A stretch of DNA of 28,490 bases from IMG/VR virus record IMGVR_UViG_3300007516_000100, positions 1 through 28,490 of that record; one strand, given 5' to 3'. Numbering within the stretch: the stretch's first letter is position 1; the number at the start of each line of letters is the position of its first letter. The notes below the pieces were generated by a model that saw only the letters and a program-made list of their open reading frames with translations, searched no databases and was not told where the DNA came from. This stretch comes from a virus. Shown here in pieces: positions 4,399-26,404 of this stretch. Position numbers and translations under genes: made by a program.

Positions 4399-4406
4399 TA
4401 TAAATA
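4399..4406 (+). promoter_or_regulatory. T4-type late promoter box (TATAAATA)
   Basis: TATAAATA lies 19 nt upstream of the HNH endonuclease ATG (4425), followed by an AGGAG ribosome-binding site (4415-4419). A small CTCC/GGAG hairpin (4383-4386 with 4393-4396) precedes it; the same CTCC could instead pair with the ribosome-binding site in read-through transcripts, as in the T4 I-TevI arrangement. That helix is only 4 bp, so this regulation is speculative. Confidence 0.5.
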
Positions 4407-4424: not shown

Positions 4425-5459
4425 ATGTTCAAAGAAAATAAATACACCCGCTTGTATATCTCTATAATTGAAAGAGCGAGAACAAGAATCATTGATGATT
4501 ATACGGAATCACATCATGTTATCCCTAAGTGTTTGGGAGGCTCCAATCTAAAGGATAACATTGTTAGGCTAACAGCAAGAGAGCACTTCCTTTGCCATCT
4601 ACTTTTAACAAAGATGAATGATAACCATCTTCTAAAATTTGCAGTGTATATGATGAGTGTTGCCAACCCAAACCAAATAGGGAAAAGATATAAAATCAAA
4701 TCTAGGATATATAGTATCTCAAAGAGACTAATGAGTGAAGCGGCATCTATTAGGTCGATGGGTAATACAAATAATTTAGGTAAAAAAGGTTATTATAATC
4801 CGATCACAAATGAACAGTCTAATTTTATAGAAGAAAAAGTGCCTCTTGGATGGCTCCCCGGAAGATCCCCAGATTTTAAGGCTAGAAATAAAGGCATGAA
4901 TGGTTCTAATATATATTATAGCAATCCTTCAACGGGCGATTGTATTCACATCGCCCCCGGCTCGGCTCCACCAAATGGTTATATAAAGTTCAGTCTTTCG
5001 GCTAGTAAGGGCGGCTTATCTGCACCAAAAATAAATTGTTACCATCTAGAAACCGGAGAATTTACGAAAGTATATTCGATTGAAGATATACCTATGGGAT
5101 ATACTGAAGGTTCGCCTAGTATTTGGATAACGGATGGAACTATTTCAAAACAGATCAACCGTATAAAAGGCTTAGTTCCGAGCGGGTGGGTGATTGGGAG
5201 AACAATTTCTACTAATTCGGCAAAAAATATCTCAAAGGCTAGGGAGAGGCCAATAGAAACTCCCCTAGGGGACTATACTCATCCTTTGAGAATGTCAGAG
5301 AAATATGGATGCGACATTTATGCTATTATGGATAATCTTGATACAAAGATTAGAATTAGAAAATCCAATGAAAAACTCAGATTGGCTTTGGCTGAAGTTG
5401 GGTACGATTTTGGGAAAACAAAACGCGATAATGGGTTTAGATATAAAGGAAAATCATGA
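4425..5459 (+). CDS. HNH homing endonuclease
   Basis: 344 residues. The N-terminal HNH core reads ESHHVIPKCLGGSNLKDNIV followed by RLTAREHFLCHLLL (His30/His31, Asn45, His54). The middle carries four degenerate copies of a 40-60-residue unit, each with a Pro-x-Gly-Trp/Tyr turn (VPLGWLPGR, APPNGYIKF, IPMGYTEG, VPSGWVIGR), and the C-terminus has a NUMOD-like segment (ETPLGDYTHPLRMSEKYG). These repeats and NUMOD-like modules bind the long DNA target. It has its own late-type promoter box and strong AGGAG site and overlaps thyX by 4 nt. Likely cleavage target: the neighbouring kinase or thyX genes of uninfected relatives. Confidence 0.85.
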   Translation: MFKENKYTRLYISIIERARTRIIDDYTESHHVIPKCLGGSNLKDNIVRLTAREHFLCHLLLTKMNDNHLLKFAVYMMSVANPNQIGKRYKIKSRIYSISKRLMSEAASIRSMGNTNNLGKKGYYNPITNEQSNFIEEKVPLGWLPGRSPDFKARNKGMNGSNIYYSNPSTGDCIHIAPGSAPPNGYIKFSLSASKGGLSAPKINCYHLETGEFTKVYSIEDIPMGYTEGSPSIWITDGTISKQINRIKGLVPSGWVIGRTISTNSAKNISKARERPIETPLGDYTHPLRMSEKYGCDIYAIMDNLDTKIRIRKSNEKLRLALAEVGYDFGKTKRDNGFRYKGKS

Positions 5460-21414: not shown

Positions 21415-21422
21415 TATAAATA
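21415..21422 (+). promoter_or_regulatory. T4-type late promoter box (TATAAATA)
   Basis: TATAAATA, 15 nt before the ATG of the GIY-YIG endonuclease, followed by a strong ATAGGAGGT ribosome-binding site (about 21426-21434). Confidence 0.5.
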
Positions 21423-21437
21423 TAGATAGGAGGTACT

Positions 21438-22187
21438 ATGTACTATTATCTATATGAAGTAAAAAATAAACTTGACGGAAAAATCTATATTGGTGTACAT
21501 AGAACTAAAAATCTCGATGATGGGTATATGGGTTCTGGTTCAATTATAGTTTCCGCAGTAAAAAAGCACGGCAAAGAGAATTTTACCAAAACCATTTTGG
21601 AAATGTTTGATAATCCAGATTCAATGTACGCAAAGGAGATGGAGGTTGTAACAGATGAGTTCTTAAAAAGATCTGATACTTACAATATCAAGCTAGGCGG
21701 ATTAGGAGGTTTTGATCATATCAATAGAGGCCCAATTGAAGATAGAGTGAACATAAAGTCATTTCGGTCAAAACTTGCATTGGGTGAGTTTATTGTAGGT
21801 GGCGACAAATCGATGTTTTTTACAGAAGAATCTTATGAGAAAATAAGAATAGGAAGTAGAGAGGGTAATGCAGTACTTGCTAATAGGACAGAAGAGGAAA
21901 AGAATATTAGCAACAGGAAACGGTCTGTGAGTTCGACTGGTGAAAAAAATTCTCAATTCTATGTTAGGCACTTTATCAGCTCCAGCGGACATAGAATAAA
22001 GTGTAAACTGGGTGAGGAGCCAGCGGGGTATACCTCAACACGAGACCTATATGAAAACGGTATGCAAAACTCAAAAAGAAGATGGTTTAATGACGGATGT
22101 ACTAGCTATATGATGGCTAGTACAGACCCAAGAGTAGTAGAATTTGGCTTGAAGCCTGGTAGATTATCAAAGCTTCAAGCCAAGTAA
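21438..22187 (+). CDS. GIY-YIG homing endonuclease (Seg-like)
   Basis: 249 residues. YYYLYEVKNKLDGKIYIGVH contains the GIY-YIG pair as YLYEV and YIG (17-19), followed by NLDDGYMGSG (25-34) as in T4 Seg endonucleases, then KHGKENFTKTILE and the catalytic-domain end NIKLGGLGGFDHIN. The C-terminal half is a basic DNA-binding region ending SKRRWFNDGCTSYMMAS, a motif also seen in other phage homing endonucleases. It is placed between an orphan T-arm and the tmRNA gene, which suggests that the tmRNA locus is its target. A late-type box and strong ribosome-binding site precede it. Confidence 0.88.
   Translation: MYYYLYEVKNKLDGKIYIGVHRTKNLDDGYMGSGSIIVSAVKKHGKENFTKTILEMFDNPDSMYAKEMEVVTDEFLKRSDTYNIKLGGLGGFDHINRGPIEDRVNIKSFRSKLALGEFIVGGDKSMFFTEESYEKIRIGSREGNAVLANRTEEEKNISNRKRSVSSTGEKNSQFYVRHFISSSGHRIKCKLGEEPAGYTSTRDLYENGMQNSKRRWFNDGCTSYMMASTDPRVVEFGLKPGRLSKLQAK
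22144..22183 (+). repeat. 11-bp inverted repeat at the end of the endonuclease gene
   Basis: TTGGCTTGAAG (22144-22154) and CTTCAAGCCAA (22173-22183) are perfectly complementary with an 18-nt loop. It covers the last codons of the endonuclease and ends 2 nt before its stop. No T-run follows, so it is not a standard terminator. It could be an RNA-processing or stabilising stem separating the mRNA from the tmRNA precursor. Confidence 0.7.
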
Positions 22188-22457
22188 TAGATGTAAACTT
22201 AACAGGATGGAAGATCGCCGGACGGGAAGTTCAATTCTCCCCCAGCTCCACCAAAAAGATATTCTGTATCTTTCTGACGGGGCTGCCAGGCTTCGACGGA
22301 GATAACAGTAAACTAGAAAGCATCTCGTCATGTAACCGACGTTAATGATACAAAAAGAGAAATGCTAACGCAGCTCAAAATGATGAAATCTTCGCTCTAG
22401 CAGCGTGAAATTAGTCTGAGGATTTGCCGGTTGACCTTATATCCCAACCAACCGGCA
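22188..22457 (+). ncRNA. ssrA: Circularly permuted (two-piece) tmRNA
   Basis: tmRNA rescues stalled ribosomes by acting first as tRNA-Ala, then as mRNA for a degradation tag. Acceptor piece: T arm around TTCAATT (22230-22236), CAGCTCC (22243-22249) and ACCA (22250-22253). Spacer: 25 nt with a 7-bp hairpin AAAGATA/TATCTTT. Coding piece: GGGGCTG (22279-22285), which pairs with CAGCTCC as in E. coli tmRNA (including the G-U pair), then CCAGGCTTCGACGG, the conserved D-loop region. Tag frame 22364-22405: ANAAQNDEIFALAA, stop TGA 22406-22408. A hairpin TCAT-TAAC/GTTA-ATGA (22328-22348) lies where pseudoknot 1 is expected. The T stem has one A-C mismatch and I could not identify a convincing P2 helix. 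Exact ends are estimates. Confidence 0.85.
22425..22457 (+). terminator. Stem-loop at the end of the tmRNA gene
   Basis: TGCCGGTTG/CAACCGGCA, a perfect 9-bp stem with a 15-nt loop, followed by CCAATTTTAAT. Either a weak rho-independent terminator or the final helix of the tmRNA coding piece; the T-run is short. Confidence 0.5.
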
Positions 22458-26106: not shown

Positions 26107-26404
26107 CCGTCTGCGCGGAAACCCGGAGCAACTAAGCGGGTGGGTTCTTTACGAAGCAGCTGATGAACTAGATCGCCAAGCCAGAGAGGTTGAGGCGCTG
26201 GCATTAAGCAGAGACGACTGGCACAAAGTGGCCGATGACCGATCTGGGAAGATTGTGGAGATGATTGTTGAGACTGAGACGTTGAAATCAGCGGCGCGGA
26301 AAGCCATTGAACTGATTCTTGGACACCAAGGCCACTGTAGTTCAGACGACGTAATACAAGCATTACAGGCTGCCATAGAGCAGCAAACAAAGGAAACACA
26401 ATGA
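26090..26404 (+). CDS. Hypothetical coiled-coil protein (104 aa), parent of duplicated modules
   Basis: MTTLIDRLRGNPEQLSGWVL and YEAADELDRQAREVEALALS are a helical N-terminus; the C-terminus is QALQAAIEQQTKETQ. Both ends recur downstream: the N-terminus at 28365 (STLIEHLR, VEELERQAKEIEEL) and the C-terminus at 28249 (AAIAQQTKETK), with clear nucleotide similarity. Ends in an ATGA overlap. Confidence 0.6.
   Translation: MTTLIDRLRGNPEQLSGWVLYEAADELDRQAREVEALALSRDDWHKVADDRSGKIVEMIVETETLKSAARKAIELILGHQGHCSSDDVIQALQAAIEQQTKETQ

Follow-up and report, generated by a model that had tools for sequence, protein, structure and literature searches.

The viral DNA record IMGVR_UViG_3300007516_000100 of IMG/VR, analysed here over its full length of 28,490 bp and referred to as the window, raises the question of how a tmRNA gene with its halves in permuted order came to lie directly behind a homing endonuclease gene, which is itself preceded by what looks like the remains of a second tmRNA 3′ piece. 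A first-pass annotation, made from the letters alone, described the tmRNA gene and assigned it to a T4-like phage; the adjacent endonuclease and the decayed 3′ piece were absent from it. The T4-like affiliation is borne out by genes for T4 RNase H, an RnlA-type RNA ligase, a Dda-like helicase and PhoH, and no gp23 was found within the window, which is the whole record and probably a fragment. Toward its end (26000−28490) the GC content rises from about 0.40 to 0.49−0.55, and an ORF at 26401−27042 contains a 12-base repeat array of 22 copies; this region may be of mosaic origin or result from an assembly join.

Covariance models identify the locus as a tmRNA gene of circularly permuted order and beta type, carried by a fragment of a T4-related phage. 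The Rfam model RF04321 (tmRNA_permuted) matches positions 22189−22408 with 112.4 bits (cut-off 47, E 1.8e-21) and RF01850 (beta_tmRNA) matches 22135−22479 with 91.6 bits (cut-off 84, E 9.7e-27), i.e., both curated cut-offs are exceeded; an ARAGORN scan of the window missed the gene. The parts that the first-pass annotation had recognized, with the 3′ half preceding the 5′ half, are all in place on the + strand. The intact 3′ piece or acceptor half (element B, 22189−22253, delimited by the RF04321 and RF01850 alignments) is composed of the P2 strand AGATG (22189−22193), an uninterrupted T loop TTCAATT (22230−22236), the acceptor strand CAGCTCC (22243−22249) and a terminal ACCA (22250−22253), and its T stem contains an A·C mismatch. 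It is followed by an intervening spacer of 25 nt (22254−22278), predicted to be removed, and by the 5′ piece or coding piece (22279−22457), which begins with GGGGCTG (22279−22285) and harbors TTCGACGG (22292−22299), the P2 strand CATCT (22321−22325), the tag reading frame ANAAQNDEIFALAA (22364−22405) with its TGA stop (22406−22408) and a post-tag hairpin (−15.4 kcal/mol, z −2.5). The 3′ end of this piece is approximate and presumably lies at about 22457, as placed only from the post-tag hairpin.

The acceptor strands of element B and the 5′ piece pair exactly, as had been claimed, in seven of seven positions including G3·U70, the alanine identity pair, and the P2 strands pair in five of five. 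The spacer forms the reported perfect 7-bp stem (p 0.008 against mononucleotide shuffles), with a folding energy of −4.4 kcal/mol (z −2.9), and the tag frame, at the tag position of both Rfam models, is open and has a degron-like ALAA end, in line with the LAA-type degron noted earlier. No standard 3′ half was found in the window downstream of the tag, nor did any group I intron or riboswitch in the window match above the Rfam cut-offs. Among the matches listed, the acceptor stem is fully paired, with seven of seven pairs, in 80 of 87 distinct permuted tmRNA cores (the loci fetched, almost all from phages, with the window and a few bacterial genomes among them). G3·U70 occurs in all 87, where pairs 1−4 were fixed by the search pattern, and pairs 5 and 6, which were free in that pattern, vary in a compensatory way. 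On these sequence data a chance origin of the structure is excluded. A search of IMG/VR with the exact 5′-piece pattern gave no match, and INPHARED held nucleotide relatives of the window tmRNA in the form of short matches only.

Permuted tmRNA genes are already known from T4-like phages, and the earlier remark, by which no such case was known to its author, is outdated. A two-piece, permuted tmRNA was described in 2022 in the T4-like OM43 myophage Melnitz, together with a set of 133 distinct phage tmRNA structures, mostly aquatic, of which 53 were two-piece (PMC9004378). The source of RF04321 is a census from 2025, in the accessible part of which a table gives 79 bacteriophage tmRNA sequences with the forms pooled (PMC11915505). 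Permuted tmRNA exceeded the cut-off in 25 of the 31 contigs that carry the closest PhoH relatives, and a pattern scan of IMG/VR yielded candidates in many contigs among the matches listed. Unannotated permuted tmRNA genes were also found in cultured phages, i.e., Stenotrophomonas phage DLP6 (KU682439.2:102838-103059, 136.8 bits), which has a T4-type gp23 (501 bits), Pseudomonas phage SM1 (KU245542.1:54071-54370), Acinetobacter phage BUCT628 (MZ593728.1:39452-39666) and Achromobacter phage JWDelta (KF787094.1:19736-20120). The beta model RF01850 is also passed by DLP6, SM1 and BUCT628. The tmRNA gene of JWDelta has an annotated HNH endonuclease immediately before it. Variovorax phage V45v66 and Achromobacter phage Motura yielded no permuted tmRNA.

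The hosts Stenotrophomonas, Pseudomonas and Acinetobacter are expected, by established knowledge, to have one-piece tmRNA. Because their phages nevertheless carry the permuted form, the form of the gene does not reveal the host, and the earlier suggestion that it may point to the host lineage had to be abandoned. Cellular genes with the acceptor of the window were found in Roseateles and Variovorax only, and their 5′ pieces score below those of phages. No phage SmpB gene was found in 12 phage records, so the phage would depend on the SmpB of its host. Melnitz and the pelagimyophages share with the window a circularly permuted tmRNA in a T4-like phage, but theirs is described as of the alphaproteobacterial type and under a glutamine riboswitch (PMC9004378), whereas that of the window is of the beta type (RF01850). 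With betaproteobacterial tmRNA (RF01850) the window shares the order of the pieces, the acceptor, P2, the hairpin after TTCGACGG and the tag position; the tag is four residues longer than in the consensus layout of RF01850, at AN-AAQN-DE, and the 3′ pseudoknot region matches more weakly. A further difference from Melnitz is found upstream, where the tmRNA gene is preceded by an endonuclease gene and a decayed 3′ piece.

The ORF at 21438−22187 (+) encodes a SegB-like homing endonuclease of 249 aa, putatively of the GIY-YIG type, which displays 39.1% identity to T4 SegB over 204 of the 249 aa and matches the homing endonuclease family phrog_314 (3.1e-36). The GIY-YIG Pfam model reaches 18.8 bits over residues 2−69 (cut-off 22.6), with the YIG motif visible; the Pfam search gave nothing over the cut-off, and a search of solved structures gave no match. 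A single nucleotide separates the stop codon of the endonuclease gene from the P2 strand of element B. The tmRNA is immediately preceded by a strong hairpin (22142−22184, +; region 22135−22190, −23.5 kcal/mol, z −6.3), which covers the end of the endonuclease gene and is a possible processing signal. The T4 late-promoter-like site TATAAATA is found at 21415−21422 (+), 15 nt before the endonuclease start, and 41 of 66 members of the endonuclease family have ATAAATA in the 60 nt that precede the gene, against a background of 3%. All three TATAAATA sites of the window sit just upstream of homing endonuclease ORFs, the other two being at 1486−1493 (−), before the ORF at 789−1451 (−), and at 4399−4406 (+), before the ORF at 4425−5459 (+).

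Upstream of the endonuclease lies element A (21340−21401, +), a decayed second tmRNA 3′ piece in which a P2 strand GGTAG, GTAAACC, GGAC, a T arm and an acceptor-like CAGGTCG can be recognized, with a changed T loop and no CCA. It scores 28 bits with RF04321, under the cut-off of 47, and its local alignment to the 3′ piece of L209, a phage with a related PhoH that gives the best match, scores 33, as compared to at most 20 among 200 dinucleotide shuffles. With the 5′ piece of the window, element A would form five of seven acceptor pairs and three of five P2 pairs; no other 5′ piece that it could use was found in the window, where the + strand has no CGACCTG partner. The alignment score of elements A and B is 14, i.e., at the level of shuffled sequences, which rules out a fresh duplication of B as the origin of A and equally implies that B is no recent copy of A; element B resembles other phage tmRNAs (L248, score 30). 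Since A matches L209 and is unlike B, it looks like the former front half, of the type found in relatives, that was stranded when B arrived.

To look for the same arrangement, relatives of the endonuclease were collected with an alignment-based scan and the matching records, IMG/VR contigs that are mostly fragments, were then searched with RF04321; a single-sequence scan had found no relatives of the endonuclease, whereas the alignment query did. In G083/L292 a truncated 3′ piece, which breaks off just after GTTCGACTC, is followed by a SegB-like gene, a complete 3′ piece with its P2 strand GCTGT within the last codons of that gene, a spacer and a 5′ piece, with which the P2 strand of the remnant still pairs in five of five positions. 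In G062/L270 a SegB-like gene and a complete tmRNA follow a 3′ piece that is cut short where the T stem ends. These remnants score 39 (G083/L292) and 35 (G062/L270), with shuffle maxima of 18, and the three clear remnants, including element A, all end in or at the T arm. In G068/L276 and G051/L051 a SegB-like gene lies directly upstream of the tmRNA, and in G052/L021 only the C-terminal part of such a gene does, with a marginal upstream remnant whose score is reached by 2 of 200 shuffles. The recurrence in independent contigs argues, at the level of sequence, against an assembly artefact as the source of the order of A, endonuclease and B.

The association extends to tRNA genes. A tRNA starts within 25 nt of the stop codon in 21 of 63 distinct SegB relatives, as compared to 52 of 327 control ORFs (p 0.002), and in L269:1000-1721 a SegB-like gene lies between a truncated tRNA 5′ half (assigned by eye) and a complete tRNA-Gly(GCC), the start of which overlaps the last codons of the gene, i.e., the layout is the same as at the tmRNA. 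A second type of arrangement is seen in G037 (L262-L268), where the tmRNA spacer encloses an HNH-like ORF in the loop of its hairpin; the ORF, recognized by eye through its Cys/His pattern and without a Pfam match, is identical in six of the seven contigs and 90% identical in the other. The acceptor strands around this ORF pair perfectly, and the tag is ANTNAAPVAYALAA. An HNH-like ORF nested in a permuted tmRNA spacer was also seen in L231:1230-1600 (reverse complement; contig IMGVR_UViG_3300042868_003731).

Taken from the sequence, the window contains an intact-looking permuted tmRNA gene of a T4-related phage that was probably invaded by a SegB-like homing endonuclease. T6 SegB cleaves within tRNA genes, with the mapped motif RAWTSGAAC (PMC13096335), the reverse complement of which, GTTCSAWTY, is by our own reading close to the T-loop sequence. 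The endonuclease may accordingly recognize T-arm DNA, as T4/T6 SegB cuts inside tRNA genes, and in a mixed infection would cut a resident permuted tmRNA gene, which would be repaired from a donor that carries the endonuclease together with an intact 3′ piece, or a whole tmRNA; the former front half would be left behind upstream of the endonuclease. In the permuted order the tRNA-like half comes first, so that about 65−70 nt would be enough to restore the gene, which would thus stay usable. Whether the 5′ piece arrived with B or resided there earlier is not separated by the scores; element A pairs with it at three of five P2 positions and the remnant of G083 with its own at five of five, i.e., exchange of the 5′ piece may differ between cases. 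Because the late-type promoter precedes the endonuclease, the tmRNA is probably also expressed late, by read-through. The RNA would then be cut into two pieces, charged with alanine and, together with host SmpB, would rescue and tag stalled ribosomes during infection; such a ribosome-rescue role is plausible. Immunity to the endonuclease through the GGCAGTA T loops of some endonuclease-linked tmRNAs was rejected as an explanation, since the alpha-type consensus is GGCgGUA.

An ordinary phage permuted tmRNA that adjoins the endonuclease by chance, with element A left from another recombination event, is unlikely, even if T4-like phages and tRNA clusters commonly contain SegB-like genes. G068 and G051, two of the six loci that combine endonuclease and tmRNA, lack a 3′-piece remnant upstream of the SegB-like gene, which counts against an invasion, and among tmRNA loci fetched regardless of endonucleases only L051 and L021 have the SegB-like family upstream among the matches listed. 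The tmRNA gene also lies just before PhoH in the window and 2−3 kb after PhoH in relatives, and this likewise speaks against an invasion. Chance adjacency, however, has to accommodate that the order of truncated 3′ piece, gene and complete 3′ piece is also found in G083 and G062, and that the SegB-like gene ends at or inside the 3′ piece each time.

The gene could instead be a decaying relic that is no longer expressed or processed, for which the A·C mismatch in the T stem and the Rfam score of 112, below the 135−152 of relatives, may be cited. We regard this as improbable: acceptor and P2 pairing are complete, the spacer hairpin is present, and the tag is open with its ALAA end and stop. A role as a decoy, in which the RNA would sequester SmpB and thereby inhibit trans-translation in the host, is very improbable; a form composed of the tRNA-like domain only is described in phage DS6A, as is inhibition of tmRNA by such a molecule (PMC4131195, PMC11915505), and the lack of phage SmpB in the records searched would fit, but a decoy does not need a complete coding piece and a tag ending in ALAA.

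The favored reading, invasion by the endonuclease, has parallels in known systems. T4/T6 SegB (PMC2988022, PMC13096335) similarly has a late-type promoter upstream, tRNA-like neighbors and repeated units, but in the window the neighbor is a permuted tmRNA gene and a 3′ piece is stranded upstream; tmRNA is unmentioned in these papers. Endonuclease-linked invasion of the T arm is also found in tmRNAs with T-loop group I introns, some with LAGLIDADG endonucleases (PMC11915505); the window has no intron, and function would be kept by a replacement half rather than by splicing. The association of a SegB-like gene with permuted tmRNA, including stranded and replaced 3′ pieces, looks new, as it is undescribed in the open-licence PMC papers examined.

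More tentatively, SegB-type endonucleases may be gene-restoring mobile elements of tRNA-like RNA genes. Such an element would insert into a tRNA or at the T arm of a tmRNA, and the front portion of the gene broken in this way would travel with it, attached to the 3′ end of the element. Permuted tmRNA genes would then be natural homes for endonucleases, since their order starts with the tRNA-like half and the spacer is not retained, and they would have been colonized in two ways, by SegB-like endonucleases ahead of a replaced 3′ piece and by HNH-like ones (L262-L268) inside the spacer. As the survey shows, some T4-like lineages commonly carry permuted tmRNA, which often lacks annotation, and its presence in phages of hosts expected to have one-piece tmRNA warns against reading the host from the form of the gene. 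If right, the proposed invasion would explain how phages can exchange tmRNA halves, and how an RNA gene can be broken by a selfish gene and still be retained by the phage.
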